Part shown: piece after piece, positions 11,724 to 61,853 of the stretch
Numbering within the stretch: position 1 is the first letter of the stretch
Layout: each line of letters begins with the position of its first letter
Position numbers and translations under genes: made by a program
Notes under the pieces: generated by a model
Told to the model about the DNA's origin: nothing
Database searches by the model: none
Seen by the model: the letters and a program-made list of their open reading frames with translations, nothing else
NCBI GenBank assembly: GCA_038400315.1
Contig: CP151667.1
Location: forward strand, 4,227,174 to 4,291,173
DNA length: 64,000 nt
Source of the DNA: Isosphaeraceae bacterium EP7
Lineage (GTDB): Bacteria > Planctomycetota > Planctomycetia > Isosphaerales > Isosphaeraceae
Reading direction: 5' to 3'

Positions 11724-12545
11724 ACGAGGACTTGGCGTTTTGGGTGAGGTTGCGGTGGACATCTCGATGACGGCAATTCTCTGCTTCGCGGCCTTGGCCT
11801 GGGGGCTGTCCGGGTAATTTTGGATCAGCAAGCGGTAGGCTTTCAAGGCTTCGGAGGGCTTCCCCATCGACTCCAGATGGCCGGCCTTCAAGAGCAACAA
11901 GGCGGCTTCGTCGGGAGCAGGCTCGTCTTCCTGGGCGAGTTCGATCAGGTCGCTCCGGTTGAGCTTGCGCCCCAAGCCCACGAGCAAATTCGTCGCCTCA
12001 TTGACGGTCGTGATGTCTGCCTCCATCTTCCGGACTGCCAGAAGCCAATCGACGGCAGCTTCCCGCTTGCCCTGGCGTATCAGGGACTTTGCGATCGCGA
12101 GGTCTGAATTCGCCTTCGTCACCGAGCCAGGGGCTTGCGATCCGCCCTTGCCGGTCGAGTTTTGACTGTCCGCGACGGCGACTGACGCCGAGGTAGGCTT
12201 GGATGTCGTTCTCGCCCGCTTCTTCTTCGACCTTCCACCTATCCGGGGTGACGGCGGAATGTATCCTGTCGCGTCGTGGCCAGTCGCCCGGTAGGGCTGG
12301 GCGTTGATAGCCTCGGCAAGCCCGCCGCCGAAGCCCATGCCGACTCCGCCCCCGTAACTGCCGTCATATCCGGCGGAGTTCGGCAGGAACTGGCCACCGG
12401 CGTAGAACTTGCCGTTGACGGTGATACCGCCGGCCGGGGCGTGCCGCTGCTGGGCCATGCATTCGCCGGAAACGGTCAGAATCAGGTATGCCGAGATTCC
12501 CAGAACGATGCGTCTTGAAATCGTCTTTGTGGACGGTTTGGACAT
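11721..12545 (-). CDS. secreted protein with C-terminal TPR-like repeats
   Basis: A 274-residue protein with an N-terminal Sec signal peptide (hydrophobic IVLGISAYLILTVSG, possible cleavage near CMA-QQ). After it comes a Gly/Tyr-rich low-complexity stretch (GYDGSYGGGVGMGFGGG) and a basic, Ser/Thr-rich linker. The last 110 residues are helical, with at least one good TPR unit (ALLLLKAGHLESMGKPSEAL, then AYRLLIQNYPDSPQAKAA). This suggests a periplasmic scaffold or binding role. The base composition is somewhat lower in GC than its neighbours. The stop lies directly against the right arm of the inverted repeat at 11633-11723. Confidence 0.75.
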   Translation of the reverse strand: MSKPSTKTISRRIVLGISAYLILTVSGECMAQQRHAPAGGITVNGKFYAGGQFLPNSAGYDGSYGGGVGMGFGGGLAEAINAQPYRATGHDATGYIPPSPRIGGRSKKKRARTTSKPTSASVAVADSQNSTGKGGSQAPGSVTKANSDLAIAKSLIRQGKREAAVDWLLAVRKMEADITTVNEATNLLVGLGRKLNRSDLIELAQEDEPAPDEAALLLLKAGHLESMGKPSEALKAYRLLIQNYPDSPQAKAAKQRIAVIEMSTATSPKTPSPR

Positions 12546-12672
12546 GATTCAACTCGATGGGGGGCGAACTTCAGAGCGTCGAGGCGAGATCATCAGGTAT
12601 ATCGTGCGATCATGCAATCGTGTCGGGGCGAAATGAGTCTTCCCGGCGACGAAAGTGCCGGCGGCGGGGCGA

Positions 12673-12698
12673 GAGGGGAAAAGGGGACATCGAATCGA
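12673..12698. repeat. partial copy of the GGGAAAAGGGGACAT repeat
   Basis: The 15-mer GGGAAAAGGGGACAT at 12676-12690 is identical to the left arm of the element at 11633-11723. After it the sequence diverges (CGAATCGACCCCCC). No matching right arm was found nearby. It lies in the 264-base gap between the TPR protein and the SnoaL-like gene. Confidence 0.6.
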
Positions 12699-12809
12699 CC
12701 CCCCCGAAGTCGCCACGCTCGGCTGGGATCGGCCCGATGTGCCGGAGAGGGTTAACCTGGCCAATCTCTCGAAGATCGGGCAGCGGGAGGTCGAGTCACG
12801 CGGACCCGA

Positions 12810-13220
12810 TCAGCTCGTCGTCGCCCCCAGCTGCATCATCAGGCCCAAGGTGTCCATAAGGATTCGGGTGTCCTTGATCCGCCCTTCGATAAGCCGGTCG
12901 ATGACCATTCCCCATACGGACACACCGCGGCCGGTGGCCGGGATGCCGAGGAATGGCCCGTTGTGGGTCCCGGTCCACGCGAACCGAGTGAGCACGCGGT
13001 CGCCTTCGGTGAGTTGCTCCTCGATGGTCCAGTGCATGTCGGGGAACGCGGCACGCATGCCACGCAGGACGTCCTGAAGGCCGGTTAGGCCAGGTCCCTG
13101 GCCCGGGAACGGAACAAGTTCGACCACGTCCTCCCAGGCGAACCGATCGGCCCCGTCCACGTCCCCCTGATTGATGACCTCCTCGATGAACCGGCGGACG
13201 ATGGCGGCATTGTCGGGCAT
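12810..13220 (-). CDS. SnoaL-like ester cyclase family protein
   Basis: A 136-residue protein of the NTF2-like superfamily, SnoaL / ester-cyclase branch. The pattern is N-terminal NAAIVRRFIEEVINQGDVDG, then FAWEDVVELVPFPGQGPGLTG with the typical GLxG loop, then DMHWTIEEQLTEGDRVLTRF and WTGTHNGPFLGIPATGRGV. The last of these is the hallmark of the family (W-x-G-T-H-x-G-x-F-x-G-x-P-x-T-G). The start at 13220 is preceded by GGAGA on the coding strand. SnoaL proteins close polyketide rings, but most short stand-alone members have unknown substrates. No polyketide genes are nearby, so a generic small-molecule enzyme is the safest call. Confidence 0.88.
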   Translation of the reverse strand: MPDNAAIVRRFIEEVINQGDVDGADRFAWEDVVELVPFPGQGPGLTGLQDVLRGMRAAFPDMHWTIEEQLTEGDRVLTRFAWTGTHNGPFLGIPATGRGVSVWGMVIDRLIEGRIKDTRILMDTLGLMMQLGATTS

Positions 13221-13384
13221 GGACGGTTCTCCGGACGGTTCGGGCGACCCCAAAGAGGCCCGGAGAGTTTACCGCGGTCCTGACCTCTGCGCAAGGGTGA
13301 CCCCATGGCGAGCTAAGTCGTTGCCGGTTCCCATGATCTCGCACGCGGCCCGCCCCGCGGTTCTCGCCCGGAGCAGCTTTCGAA

Positions 13385-13409
13385 GGAAAGGGAAAAGGGG
13401 ATCGATTCA
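13385..13409. repeat. partial copy of the GGGAAAAGGGGA repeat
   Basis: GGGAAAAGGGGA at 13390-13401 matches the first 12 bases of the left arm of the element at 11633-11723; the following bases (TCGATTCACG) resemble those of the copy at 12673. It lies about 90 bases upstream of the PEP-CTERM gene, inside its likely promoter region. Confidence 0.45.
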
Positions 13410-13500
13410 CGACGTTAAGATTCTTCTGGATTCAACGCATCACCCATGGCATCATGATCGGCTCTTCTCGTCATCACCTTTCTATCGAGAATCTCCGACG

Positions 13501-14385
13501 ATGCGAACGAGGATCTATTCCACCGGTCTCCTTTGTCTCGCGATGATCGCGACAGCGTCCTCGGCCCGGTCCGAGGCGATCGGGATTTCCTTTTACGGCA
13601 GCCTCTACGACATCGACCTGGCGACCGGTGCTGCCACAAATCTCCGGAACACGGGGCTTCAGTCGGTTGTCGGGGTCGCCCTGCGTGCGGATGGCGCCCT
13701 GTTTACGATGACGACATTCGGCGACAACATCCCATCAACGCTCATGCGCATCGACCCGCTCACCGGGGCCGCGACTGTCATCGGTGCGGTGGGCCTGGAC
13801 ATCCGCGAGGGCGACCTCGGCTTCGACCCGAGCACCCAAGAACTGTTCGGGCTCTTTAACCTCGGGAGCGGGGGTACGCAGAGCCTGCTGCGATTGGATG
13901 CCGACACGGGGCAGGCCACGGTGATCGGTGTGGTCCCGGGGGGGGTTGACGATATGTCCGGCCTGACATTCGACGCGTCGGGTAATCTGCTCGTCCTGGA
14001 GACTCGCATCAGCACGGATGGAGACTCAAGGCTCCTGACGCTGGACAAATCGACCGGTGCAATCCTCTCTGCGCTGACGCTCGATCGTCAACTCGGAGTG
14101 GTCGGGGGTCTCTCGTACGACGGCCTCTCCGGCAATCTCTACCTCGTCGAAGGCAATTTCGGCTCATCCGACCCGAATTCCCTCTACACGGTTGATCGGA
14201 CAACGGGTGGATTGACCGCGGTCGGGCCGACCGGCCTATCGACCGAAGGCCTGGCGGGCCTGACGATCACCCCGTTCGCAGTCGCGGTCCCGGAGCCGGC
14301 GTCAGTTGTTCTTTTAGGCCTTGGTGTCGCAGGCCTCGGGGTCCGGCTCCTACGTCAGCCCCACCGTCGGGCCATGACCCGTTAG
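13501..14385 (+). CDS. PEP-CTERM sorting-domain protein, propeller-like
   Basis: A 294-residue exported protein. The N-terminal signal peptide (STGLLCLAMIATASSARS) follows the ATG at 13501. The body has repeated units of the form LYDIDLATGAAT, LMRIDPLTGAAT, LLRLDADTGQAT, LLTLDKSTGAI and LYTVDRTTGGLT. These look like five or more beta-propeller blades, similar to proteins annotated DUF4394 or WD40-like. The C-terminus carries a full PEP-CTERM signal: VPEPASVVLLGLGVAGLG plus an Arg-rich tail. That signal is recognised by exosortase/EpsH-type enzymes, which move such proteins to the surface in exopolysaccharide-producing bacteria. No exosortase gene lies in the window. An upstream start at 13171 would overlap the divergent SnoaL gene and bury the signal peptide. 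Confidence 0.9.
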   Translation: MRTRIYSTGLLCLAMIATASSARSEAIGISFYGSLYDIDLATGAATNLRNTGLQSVVGVALRADGALFTMTTFGDNIPSTLMRIDPLTGAATVIGAVGLDIREGDLGFDPSTQELFGLFNLGSGGTQSLLRLDADTGQATVIGVVPGGVDDMSGLTFDASGNLLVLETRISTDGDSRLLTLDKSTGAILSALTLDRQLGVVGGLSYDGLSGNLYLVEGNFGSSDPNSLYTVDRTTGGLTAVGPTGLSTEGLAGLTITPFAVAVPEPASVVLLGLGVAGLGVRLLRQPHRRAMTR

Positions 14386-57618: not shown

Positions 57619-58073
57619 TGGGCAGCATCAACTCCGGGCCAGGACTGACGGTCTGAGATCCCCGACCCCGGCCGGGGTCAAGTCGCCATCGAGTGAGTGA
57701 TCCGAGCTGACGTCGTTTCCATTGCCCAGCCGGGCAAGGTGGGGCCCTCTGGCCCGTGGTCTCGTTCGGTGCATTCGAAGGTGCTCATTCGTCGGTTGTC
57801 TCCCGCGCGATTGCCACGTCGCCCGATGGCTTGATCCGGGCTGCGCCGGGATTTTGCTCGCCGCCACATCCCACCGATTCGATCGATCCGCCCCAGGCGC
57901 AGCGGGTCTCAATGCGATGGCGTCAGACTCGGTCGATTGTCAAGAGAGCGTGGAGAATTTGCGACAAGTCAAAGCATTAGCTGGCAATGCGGCAAATGTT
58001 TTATGATATTCGTCGGCTAAAGAGATGCCGATTCGGCCGTTGTTCGTCCCCCCCATCTAGGTCCGGCCCAAGC
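57619..58073. other. 455-base intergenic region
   Basis: No supported gene. GACCCCGGCCGGGGTC at 57664-57679 is a perfect 16-base palindrome 46 bases after the aminotransferase stop, a candidate terminator. Towards the right the region becomes AT-richer (57950-58020, with TTTTATGATATTCG), probably the promoter of the patatin-like gene at 58074. I could not define a convincing -35 box. Confidence 0.5.
57664..57679. terminator. palindromic hairpin after the aminotransferase gene
   Basis: GACCCCGGCCGGGGTC is a perfect palindrome; a 6-bp stem with GGCC loop is possible. It lies 46 bases past the stop codon. No T-run follows, so the terminator assignment is tentative. Confidence 0.4.
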
Positions 58074-61000
58074 ATGAATCAAAATTATGATGCCAATTCG
58101 ACACATGGCGAATTGGATAATGAAGCGGATATGGTCGAGCCGCCTACTCGTCCCTTCCTCGACGACACGACGTCCCCTGCGGAATCCCGACAACGGGATC
58201 CTGGCGGAAGCGAAGAAGGGACCGAATCGTGGCAGGAGCGAGTTTGCCGGCTGGCCCACCTGAAAGGCGAGGTCTTCGTATCCGAGCCTCGGAAGGTCTA
58301 TCGTGCTGAGCATCAGGCGATCGCCGAGCGTCGACGGTTCTTCGAGCAGGGGGATTTGAAAGCGGGGGAGAGTCTGGAGGACCCCGACGGCGAGAAAGTC
58401 AAGGATGACCTCATCGGCCTTTCCCTGTCGGGCGGCGGGATTCGCTCGGCGATGTTCAATCTGGGCCTTTTGCAAGCCTTCTGGAGGCGAGGTGTTCTTC
58501 CTCAGATCGATTATCTGGCGACCGTCTCCGGCGGCGGTTACGTCGGCTCCCGGCTGACCCAGGCGGCCGCGACCTGGTCGGCGGAACAATCTGACGACAG
58601 CAAAGATCAGAGCCGCCGGGCGACAAAGTCCGATGGCGATCCTAAGGGGGCGGTGCCATGGTTCCCGTTCGACTTCCGGGCCAATCGGCCCGTGGCCGCG
58701 AACTCGACCGGCCCTCGCCAGATCTACAATCGGGGCGACTACCTGAATGATCCTTTCCGGTTCTTCTTCCAATGGTTGCCTGGCATGGTCATCAACCTCG
58801 TCATCGTGCTCTCTATGCTGGCGATCGTCGCGTCGGCCGCCGCCTGGATCTTCCGGGCCTTCGATCACCCATGGGTCGATTCCGGGATGCGCGGTTGCGT
58901 TATGCAGATGCTCATGGGGCTGCGCCACATCGGTGTCTACTTAGGGATAGATTGGTCGAGTAATTGCGATACTTCTCGACCCAGGAACGCCTTCATCGGT
59001 CAGTGCTGTGTCTTGGCGACGCTCCTTGTGCTCTGGATCGCGCTGCTGGGCCTGGCGTTCAGCGTCCGCAGGCATCTCGGTCCGTCGCGGTTCAAGCGGA
59101 TGGCCAGGGGCATTTTAACGATCGTTGTGGCTTGCTACCTATTCGTCGCGGCCGTGGGATTCACGTCACTCCTCCGCTGGCCCCAAGGTAATCCGAAATG
59201 CGACACCGCGGGATACTTGTCTAAAGACAAGGATGTCCCCGCCAAGGATCCGCAGAATATTAAGCAGCCGACGGGAATGGAATTCAACCGCACCCTGAGT
59301 CTTTCCAACGAGATCTTGAAGCCGCAGGATCCCACGGCAACTGACCATTTGCGAAAAAAGCGAGCCCGGGAGCTGGCGCAGGTTGTCGAGTACTTGGTCG
59401 ATGAGGATCCCTGGTATCAGGTTAGGGCCCTGAAATCGTGGGAGCGTCTCAAGGATGATCCCTCCCAAGCAGGCTCGCAAGGCAGGAACCTCGTCAATCG
59501 ACTCATTACTACCTTGGCAGTGCTCAGGGCTGAATCGCCGGACGGTGTTGTTTGGAGCTTCGACCGGGTCACGAAGGCATTAAGATCGATCTGGATTGGG
59601 TCGCCTGACCAGGTCGTAAAGGGTTTCGAGGTTCTCGATTCCCCAGACATCACAGAAACGATCACTGCGCAAGCAAAAATTCTCTTCTGGCCCGCCTCCA
59701 GGGATTTGATCGCCGCCTGTGAGGAACTGAAGGTCGAACCTGTCAAAGTTTTCGACGGGACGCCTTCCAGGAATTTGGGAACATTTCGCGAAAGTATGAT
59801 CGCCCTGGAGACGTCGAGCTTGATTGTCACCGATTTGACCCGTGCGATGATCCCGGCCCTCATTTTCTCGGCTTTGTATGGGGTCCTGCACCTCGCTCGC
59901 TACGTTTTGGTCGACATGCACCCTCGGAACAACGGGCGTCTGCGTTGGTTGGAGGGGAAACTAGGTGCCCTCTCATGGATCGCGGCGTTGCTGGGCATTT
60001 TTGTCCTCCTCGGGAATGGCGACACCGACATCGGTGGCTTCAAATACTTGAGGCCGGACGCCTGGAACAATATCAGCGCCGACGACTCGAATGAGGGCAT
60101 CCTGCCCAGCGCGAGGTATTCGCTGCAAGAAGGCCTCCAGGCCTTCATACACACGATCCTGCTCGTGCCTACCGCCATCGCCGCAGCCCTGGCCCTGGTG
60201 CCGATCCTCGCGCCCGGCAAGTTCCTCCAGAGCAGCGAGCGGCCCAGGGACTCGGTGCAGGGCCTCGTCTACCGTCTGGTCGTGGGCTCATTCATCCTCG
60301 TCTTTCCTCTGGCCGCGTTCTTCTTCCTGGCCAGGGAGAACGTCTCGGGCGCGGCGCCTTCGAAAACGGAAACGGCCACCTACGAGAGGGAGGCCATTCC
60401 TGGTCGAGGCGAGGACAGACCGCCGGATGCCTCGGGCCTCGCAACCGACCCCAATCGATCGAACGCCGACGAGCCGCGGGGCGGCGAACCCGGGCAGGTG
60501 CCGGTGAAGAACATCGCTCGGATGGCGTATTGTCCCGCGGGCCTTTTCACCACCTTCGGCTACCTGATTCAGAATGACCAGGCTATTCGGGGCCTGATTT
60601 TCTTCGCCGGCCTGGCCGTCTTCTTCATCCTGGGGACGCTCTCGAACGTCAACCGCTCGTCGATCCACTACTTCTACCGCGAGAAGCTGCGCGAGACGTA
60701 TCTCAACTGGGACAGGGACATCGGCAGGGATAAGACTGTCGCGGAAAGGCCCGACTATCGCAAGCTAAAGGACCAGCGGGGCAGTGAGGTCGGCGCCCCG
60801 TATCATATCCTGTCGGCGACGTTGAACGTCATCGTGAACCCCACCGAGCGCCGAGAGCTGAAGGAAATCCGCCACAATTTCATCTTCTCGCCGCTCTACT
60901 GCGGCTCGAAGGAGGTCGGGTTCCGCAGGACCGACAAATATCACGGGGGAGTCGACTTGGCCGATGCGATCGCGATCTCCGGGGGTGCCATCAGCCCCAT

Positions 61001-61853
61001 CCAGGGTCTCACTTTCGGTGGCCGGTTCTGGATGGTCCTGCTCAATGCGAGGCTGGGCCAGTGGTACGCCAATCCCAACCCGAAATTCGAGCCGTGGTCC
61101 ATGCCCACGATCCCGAGCCTGATGGCCGAGTACTTCTTTCACAGCTGGAAGAAGCGGGGCCATTATTTCCTCTCCGATGGCGCCCACCGCGACAACCTCG
61201 GCCTGGAGCTGCTCCTCCTGCGTCGTTGCCGTCTCATCATCGTCTCGGACGTCTCGCACGACCCCAAATATGAGCTGAACGACCTCATCCGCGACCTGCG
61301 GCGGGCACGGATCTGGGAGGGCATTCAGTTCCGGCCGCTGTCGATGAAGGCGATGGAGGAGGCCATCCCCAGGCTCTTCAAGACGGTCCCATCCGCGGCG
61401 CCGCTCTTCGGCCTAGACCAGTTCTCCGACGATGTGGCCGCGAAGGCCGCGGGCAAGAAATATACGCGGGAGAATTTCTTCCTCATCCAGATCTGCTATC
61501 CCTCAATCCCGCCCGAGAAGGATGGGACCGGCGGCGAACCGGCGCGTGATGGGCTGCTGATCGTCGTAAAACCGTCGCTCAGTGCCCGGTTCCCGACGCC
61601 GGGCGAATTGGAGCAGCACTACAAGATCAACCCGTCCTTCCCGCACGACCCGGATCTCGAGCAAATCTACGAGGAGGATCGGATCGAGGCCTATCGCCAG
61701 CTCGGCGAGCACATCGGGATTTCGCTCTCAAACGGGCTGAGCTGCCTCGTCGACACCGACGCCGACCAGAGCTTCGCGTCGAAGCGGGCCTCATTCTTCG
61801 AGCTCAGCGATCGAATCCTGAAGGCAGCCGGCTCGAACTCTCGCACCGAGTAG
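58074..61853 (+). CDS. large membrane-embedded patatin-like phospholipase family protein
   Basis: A 1,259-residue protein. Near residues 115-165 it has the patatin oxyanion and nucleophile motifs: LIGLSLSGGGIRSAMFNLGL and DYLATVSGGGYVGSRL, with Ser 152 as likely nucleophile. Catalytic Asp is in LSDGAHRDNLGLELLLLRR (Asp 1035). Between them are about eight membrane helices (for example GMVINLVIVLSMLAIVASAA, ATLLVLWIALLGLAFSV, ILTIVVACYLFVAAVGFTSL, ALIFSALYGVLHLARYVL, TILLVPTAIAAALALVPILA, GLIFFAGLAVFFILGTL) and a large soluble loop at residues about 380-590. Patatins are lipid acyl hydrolases. GC is visibly lower here than in neighbours (about 53% in 59281-59340 by my count), which hints at transfer. 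The ATG at 58074 was chosen over an AT-rich upstream extension. Confidence 0.85.
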   Translation: MNQNYDANSTHGELDNEADMVEPPTRPFLDDTTSPAESRQRDPGGSEEGTESWQERVCRLAHLKGEVFVSEPRKVYRAEHQAIAERRRFFEQGDLKAGESLEDPDGEKVKDDLIGLSLSGGGIRSAMFNLGLLQAFWRRGVLPQIDYLATVSGGGYVGSRLTQAAATWSAEQSDDSKDQSRRATKSDGDPKGAVPWFPFDFRANRPVAANSTGPRQIYNRGDYLNDPFRFFFQWLPGMVINLVIVLSMLAIVASAAAWIFRAFDHPWVDSGMRGCVMQMLMGLRHIGVYLGIDWSSNCDTSRPRNAFIGQCCVLATLLVLWIALLGLAFSVRRHLGPSRFKRMARGILTIVVACYLFVAAVGFTSLLRWPQGNPKCDTAGYLSKDKDVPAKDPQNIKQPTGMEFNRTLSLSNEILKPQDPTATDHLRKKRARELAQVVEYLVDEDPWYQVRALKSWERLKDDPSQAGSQGRNLVNRLITTLAVLRAESPDGVVWSFDRVTKALRSIWIGSPDQVVKGFEVLDSPDITETITAQAKILFWPASRDLIAACEELKVEPVKVFDGTPSRNLGTFRESMIALETSSLIVTDLTRAMIPALIFSALYGVLHLARYVLVDMHPRNNGRLRWLEGKLGALSWIAALLGIFVLLGNGDTDIGGFKYLRPDAWNNISADDSNEGILPSARYSLQEGLQAFIHTILLVPTAIAAALALVPILAPGKFLQSSERPRDSVQGLVYRLVVGSFILVFPLAAFFFLARENVSGAAPSKTETATYEREAIPGRGEDRPPDASGLATDPNRSNADEPRGGEPGQVPVKNIARMAYCPAGLFTTFGYLIQNDQAIRGLIFFAGLAVFFILGTLSNVNRSSIHYFYREKLRETYLNWDRDIGRDKTVAERPDYRKLKDQRGSEVGAPYHILSATLNVIVNPTERRELKEIRHNFIFSPLYCGSKEVGFRRTDKYHGGVDLADAIAISGGAISPIQGLTFGGRFWMVLLNARLGQWYANPNPKFEPWSMPTIPSLMAEYFFHSWKKRGHYFLSDGAHRDNLGLELLLLRRCRLIIVSDVSHDPKYELNDLIRDLRRARIWEGIQFRPLSMKAMEEAIPRLFKTVPSAAPLFGLDQFSDDVAAKAAGKKYTRENFFLIQICYPSIPPEKDGTGGEPARDGLLIVVKPSLSARFPTPGELEQHYKINPSFPHDPDLEQIYEEDRIEAYRQLGEHIGISLSNGLSCLVDTDADQSFASKRASFFELSDRILKAAGSNSRTE

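Follow-up and report, generated by a model that had tools for sequence, protein, structure and literature searches.

A membrane domain between the catalytic serine and aspartate of a predicted patatin/cPLA2-fold protein from Isosphaeraceae bacterium EP7

Patatin and cytosolic phospholipase A2 (cPLA2) enzymes mostly need recruiting to membranes. The passages on cPLA2 in one account (PMC6550875) give its site as Arg200, Ser228, and Asp549, with the Ser and the Asp far apart in sequence, and describe a C2 domain as its main route to membranes; for VipD, the corresponding passage gives Ser73 and Asp288 (PMC12871566). We analyzed a 64,000-nucleotide stretch of Isosphaeraceae bacterium EP7 (Planctomycetota; assembly GCA_038400315.1, contig CP151667.1, positions 4,227,174 to 4,291,173 of the forward strand; hereafter the window), in which one gene carries the same kind of catalytic Ser and Asp separated by membrane protein. 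Our reading is that this gene probably encodes an integral inner-membrane lipid acyl hydrolase, in which a single patatin/cPLA2 fold is split by a membrane domain that tethers the enzyme and probably also couples it to signals. A literature search of titles and abstract openings, with most subscription papers outside its scope, returned no description of a patatin whose Ser and Asp are separated by a membrane domain.

The frame at 58074-61853 translates into 1259 residues with zero internal stops, and an alternative upstream start (ATG at 57987, 29 codons earlier) would lengthen the product to 1288 residues. Ser152 is the S of VSGGGYVG (in the context TVSGGGYVG) and Asp1035 is the D of SDGAHRDN. 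The original prediction, made from the letters of the window, had placed these two residues about 880 positions apart, with eight membrane segments and a large loop between them. This description held: the spacing is 883 residues, compared with 321 in cPLA2, our own Kyte-Doolittle scan found eight hydrophobic segments between the two residues, and a 229-residue stretch (about 366-594) separates segments 3 and 4. The features are listed below by window position; L numbers are our locus handles, and L052 is an ordinary patatin among the relatives.

58074..61853, + strand: whole gene, predicted integral-membrane patatin/cPLA2-fold protein of 1259 residues; the start may be 57987
58386..58613, + strand: N-terminal part of the catalytic fold, residues 105-180; AlphaFold confidence of 89-96 over 110-169; aligns to L052 residues 10-81
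58428..58448, + strand: oxyanion loop SGGGIRS, residues 119-125; SGGG and R invariant in 98/98 aligned sequences
58527..58529, + strand: nucleophile Ser152 in TVSGGGYVG; invariant in 98/98
58752..60641, + strand: inserted membrane region, residues 227-856, with eight hydrophobic segments; not in ordinary patatins
59169..59855, + strand: large loop, residues 366-594, predicted to be non-cytosolic
60651..60704, + strand: conserved motif NRSSIHYFYREKLRETYL, residues 860-877, directly after the last membrane segment; N860 and Y868 invariant
60786..61823, + strand: C-terminal part of the catalytic fold, residues 905-1250; within the structural fold matches
61176..61178, + strand: catalytic Asp1035 of the DG motif (D1035-G1036-A1037); invariant in 96/96 long proteins

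We folded residues 60-1259 in AlphaFold, using 95 aligned family members as input. The model had a predicted template modeling score (pTM) of 0.68 and was confident at both ends (most blocks >85); within the C-terminal part, 905-1250, 26/35 ten-residue blocks reached at least 85 and one loop fell to 57-63. As a repeat of this prediction, and not as independent data, since most rows of its 49-sequence alignment were common to the first, we also folded L092, another member, which comes from Rhizobium lusitanum (pTM 0.82). The best fold match of both models was cPLA2 (human 1cjy and GIVD 5iz5), with four entries aligned over 346-398 residues at Z 21-25. For the window protein, 1cjy_B aligned over 392 residues spanning model positions 4-1188 (VIA Z 23.9, root-mean-square deviation 3.5; Foldseek E 1.3e-4). 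PlpD 5fya_A aligned over 233/253 of its residues across model positions 53-1166 (Z 19.1), and PlpD and patatin-like phospholipases share with the window protein the catalytic core, oxyanion loop, Ser, and DG-Asp, but have no such insert. CapE 9ioq (Z 17.8), AbCapV (Z 15.8), patatin 4pka (Z 15.2), and iPLA2 beta were further fold matches, and the L092 model matched cPLA2 (Z 24.7), CapE (Z 19.2), PlpD (Z 18.4), and AbCapV (Z 17.2). All 25 structure matches with Z of at least 11 spanned the insert, starting at or before model residue 53 and ending at or after 1164, and those of the L092 model likewise spanned it. The models thus support a single patatin/cPLA2 fold formed by the N- and C-terminal parts, and the packing of both ends into one fold, which the original prediction had proposed to check by structure prediction, was seen in the models of the window protein and L092. 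Because PlpD is covered almost completely and the motifs are in place, we infer that Ser152 and Asp1035 meet in one active site.

The same order of elements recurred throughout the family. Our first set of relatives comprised 21 frames including the window gene, two of them ordinary patatins and 19 of them long (from 15/59 genomes searched), and all 19 long frames ran from the oxyanion loop to the Ser, then 6-10 hydrophobic segments, then the Asp. The larger set added 77/80 contigs from named genomes (L055, L065, and L110 were dropped as their frames were split or short). In it, 96/96 long proteins (the window protein and 95 relatives, from eleven phyla by record title) carried the loop and Ser first and the DG-Asp 362-943 residues later, with 4-14 hydrophobic segments in between. 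This count favors look-alikes, as the contigs were the top 80 among 580 confirmed stretches (from 595 candidates), ranked against an insert-bearing query. Some retained frames extend to the contig end, and L116, identical in length and score to L113, was excluded from alignment A2 and the tree. The original prediction had set the split against typical patatins, whose dyad lies within about 200 residues; the architecture is real, and a correction to be added is that a large family shares it, so that it is not unique to this gene. Genes on rhizobial plasmids that RefSeq names as patatin-like phospholipase family proteins are members of the same family; tblastn put their identity to the window protein at 25-31% in the C-terminal part. 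The Mesorhizobium member L134 aligned to L092 at 65%.

Ordinary patatins turned up by the same protein searches had far shorter Ser-Asp gaps in the 6/7 that could be measured: 176 in L052, 172 in L053, 176 in L165, 177 in L166, 215 in L167 (the maximum), and 170 in L002, which belongs to the window genome; L168 is a 147-residue frame without the DG motif. L001, the other patatin of the window genome, had a gap of 118. Profiles of the two halves of the long proteins aligned in order to L052, at residues 10-81 and then 143-304, and were likewise ordered on L053. These sequence comparisons back the view that the membrane part is an insertion into the patatin fold, as the original prediction had supposed: the ordinary patatins have no membrane part, with six gaps of 170-215, and the two halves align in order to two of them.

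The charge bias supports, on balance, a cytosolic position for both catalytic halves. Lysine plus arginine (K+R) residues near the segments of the window protein numbered 29 on the N-terminal side vs 13 on the other. Where the number of segments was even (52 members), the N side was richer in K+R in 48 and poorer in 4. The last segment was richer in K/R after than before in 66/95 members (10 poorer, 19 equal), and the N flank of the first segment was richer in 43/95 (21 poorer, 31 equal).

Several results weigh against one split fold with both halves in the cytosol. The Pfam Patatin profile (PF01734) scored 26.4 bits against a gathering cut-off of 27.7 and matched over profile positions 1-53 of 191 only. 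The C-terminal half alone matched no Pfam family, and a profile of 58 C-terminal halves, run against PDB sequences up to E 10, hit neither a patatin nor a cPLA2. Against single ordinary patatins, the C-terminal half-profile reached a probability of just 26% with L052 and 83% with L053, and with L001 12% in the wrong region. Gly154 is invariant, but the first Gly of GxSxG is replaced by Thr150; L052 and L053, which are ordinary relatives, are also without the first Gly. The middle of the model was poor (model residues 211-770 mostly <60) and therefore uninformative about gating, and no Ser-Asp distance is readable; the insert region of the L092 model had six helices of at least 17 residues, with parts below 50 in confidence. 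In the topology, the K+R bias at the first segment of the window protein was reversed (1 vs 2), and 43/95 members had an odd segment count, which at face value puts the halves on opposite sides, by a segment caller that is crude. The low Pfam score and the poor model middle would also fit two motifs from separate proteins fused by chance, or a dead enzyme. We consider either very improbable, because the window protein and its 95 long relatives all retain the oxyanion loop, Ser, and Asp, and one fold emerged in two models; chance motifs and two unrelated domains were ruled out by that conservation and those two structural models.

By its fold and catalytic residues, the window protein is a member of the patatin/cPLA2 fold superfamily that falls just under the Pfam Patatin cut-off. 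It is not a group IV cPLA2, unlike which it had no match to any C2 family in Pfam up to E 10 and only a PLA2_B score below threshold (12.1 bits vs a cut-off of 23). The sister protein L036 scored 30.1 with Patatin, and 48/49 members of alignment A4 matched Patatin at E 0.001. NCBIfam gave zero matches for the window protein and for 49/49 members scanned, and the PADLOC models gave 0 families for the window protein, L092, L112, and L123. When the whole-length profile was compared with PDB sequences, cPLA2, VipD, and ExoU were met solely via the N-terminal half, and the best matches were unrelated membrane proteins. The family is nearly invisible to profile libraries, with no NCBIfam match and a Pfam match confined to the start of the domain.

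We propose that the fold is interrupted after the nucleophile helix by the membrane domain, with eight segments here, and would be closed by the C-terminal part, which would bring the catalytic Asp. Both halves would be cytosolic and lie at the inner leaflet, where the membrane domain would hold the active site against its substrate. This domain probably also makes activity responsive to signals from the membrane or the outside, by way of a conserved N-x2-S-x-H-x2-Y-R motif that joins the last segment and the C-terminal half. N860 and Y868 of this motif were invariant in 95/95 rows of alignment A2 and 58/58 rows of A5; other invariant A2 residues in the C-terminal half were S969, R1050, P1190, and R1208. 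An invariant link that joins a much-changing membrane domain to the catalytic half argues for coupling between the two, and the insert may, as the original prediction suggested, gate lipid access. A membrane domain inside the catalytic fold, between nucleophile and acid, offers a testable model of membrane-switched lipid cleavage.

The 229-residue loop would be the likeliest sensor in the window protein. Within 58 other genomes, including the sister genome G036, it had one weak match (E 0.0038, to a frame with a stop) and no convincing relative. As a predicted non-cytosolic stretch without convincing relatives, it would be a private sensor. That lack of relatives also speaks for a membrane part that is just an anchor keeping a patatin at the bilayer, with no regulatory role, and the wide variation in segment number (4-14) and gap beside conserved catalytic halves fits an anchor as well. 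We hold this to be a plausible though less favored explanation, as the invariance of N860 and Y868 in 95/95 members is more than an anchor seems to need, and an anchor could have been appended at one end instead.

We examined the neighborhoods of 102 loci, including the window and six plasmid regions, using our own open reading frame (ORF) caller on stretches of unequal length, so that all counts are lower bounds. A TIR or TIR-SLOG-like gene lay in the stretch at no fewer than 11/102 loci (L092, L105, L106, L112, L113, L123, L126, L072, L091, L134, and L160). Representatives were a ThsB-type TIR (Pfam 4.4e-21; the Rhizobium one matched PADLOC ThsB at 7.7e-53), Nmad2, and SLOG cluster 2. All 9 TIR-type loci present in the tree fell in one 15-row clade, in which 6/15 rows showed no TIR gene, two of these (L115 and L093) on short contigs. 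An extra N-terminal stretch was present in the printed frames of 15/15 members of this clade, in L126 partly. The extension was helical, with a best Z of 8.2 (p130Cas) that possibly reflects just a common arrangement, and no family besides Patatin was found in 6 members of the clade scanned at E 0.05. Among 25 plasmid records with a match, 11 were examined for annotation, and 2/11 regions held several TIR genes (one region had no annotated features). The TIR-linked loci may form a Thoeris-like system in which the effector is a membrane lipase, and this clade is a concrete candidate for an undescribed defense effector.

CapE and AbCapV have a role in defense. They share the core fold with the window protein and, going by their entry titles, were solved as nucleotide-bound filaments, whereas the window gene has no defense neighbors in Pfam. 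Their place among the fold matches, the TIR or TIR-SLOG-like genes at 11/102 loci with Nmad2 or SLOG nearby, and the grouping of 9 tree loci in one clade would favor an abortive-infection effector, for which phage infection triggers lipid cleavage and cell death. For the window protein itself this is unlikely. It lies outside the TIR clade, and its Ser is at position 152 vs 161-343 in that clade (161 being a shortened frame). Its neighbors are an aminotransferase together with a frame without a Pfam family upstream and a sigma-70-type factor with WD40-like repeats downstream, and the window genome had zero TIR matches at E 0.001 with PF01582 or PF13676.

On a Bradyrhizobium plasmid (L136:3203-9209), a Mov34-type gene and a small patatin adjoin a split-patatin relative, an arrangement that we take to be reminiscent of a CBASS locus.

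Other relatives lie beside oxidative enzymes. RoxA-like cytochrome c genes were found at 8/102 loci or more, and at 6 they abutted or overlapped the lipase frame in the same orientation (L070, L076, L078, L114, L127, and L129; the others were L081 and L087), with two in a row at some. GMC oxidoreductase genes were in the stretch at 4 loci at least (within 50 bp at 2), and at 3 they were fused. These adjacencies, for which the Pfam calls were made on representatives, raise the reading that the window protein supplies fatty acids to an oxidizing, oxylipin-like pathway, as RoxA- and GMC-adjacent relatives may do. We think it quite unlikely here: the window gene has no RoxA-like, GMC, haem peroxidase, or TIR neighbor, and the GMC label was unclustered on the tree, which also led us to reject GMC as a clade marker (79/500 shuffles as low). 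The three fusions place the GMC oxidoreductase N-terminal to the split patatin in one frame (L037:7697-12535, L047:5758-10593, and L135:4035-8723) and adjoin a conserved gene of about 800-1060 residues. On a Phyllobacterium plasmid (L161:11381-14230), an animal-type haem peroxidase (PF03098) lies about 2 kb downstream of a split-patatin relative.

Tentatively, our preferred split-fold hydrolase might be extended to a deep, cross-phylum family of integral-membrane cPLA2-like proteins, whose active site would form when the cytosolic halves join round the membrane domain and whose lipid cleavage would be switched by the state of that domain. Inputs might then differ, from TIR-made nucleotide signals received through the N-terminal domain in one, Thoeris-like clade, to redox partners in others and, for the window protein, the outside loop.

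Phylogenetically, the window protein paired with L036 of the same taxonomic family (99), and that pair sat inside a ten-row set (98) composed of two named Planctomycetota plus relatives from the window's family or class. Neighbor clustering placed the window in no listed cluster. The near-twins L034 and L035, from the window's tree set, have neighbors in common with each other, and L036 and L038 share a neighbor cluster in which a PAS-type histidine kinase is the longest gene. The window gene occurs once in its 7.2 Mb genome, where the sole other match covered 49 residues of the 407-residue patatin frame L002; a Pfam search of this genome at E 0.001 found two patatins (L002 and one more) and not the window gene. 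A phage origin was rejected, as tblastn at E 0.001 gave no match across 50,697 phage records.

The original prediction had also noted a lower guanine plus cytosine (GC) content and taken it to suggest acquisition from elsewhere. We compared 181 frames of at least 300 residues, the window gene included, called by our own ORF caller from the window and 20 genome samples. GC was 0.602 (for the frame from 57987) vs a mean of 0.669 (standard deviation 0.029), the 4th lowest of 181; third-position GC (GC3) was 0.763 vs 0.855, the 16th lowest, and the codon index was the 12th lowest of the 181 frames. The sister L036 has a GC content 0.069 below its flanks. The depression is real and moderate, and acquisition is compatible with it without being proven: 15 other sampled genes were equal or lower in GC3, and low GC is not the rule among family genes elsewhere, with 46/89 frames (matches to the family profile, including at least one short patatin, that of L136) below their own flanks. 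The family is patchy, present in 5/45 genomes of the same taxonomic family (E 1e-20) and 7/149 drawn from the phylum (E 1e-15), counting the window genome in both. This patchiness and the moderate composition bias together suggest horizontal movement, without proof. Elsewhere in the window, the region 11724-14382 is also lower in third-position GC, with GC3 of 0.755 for the frame at 11724-12545 and 0.728 for that at 13171-14382.

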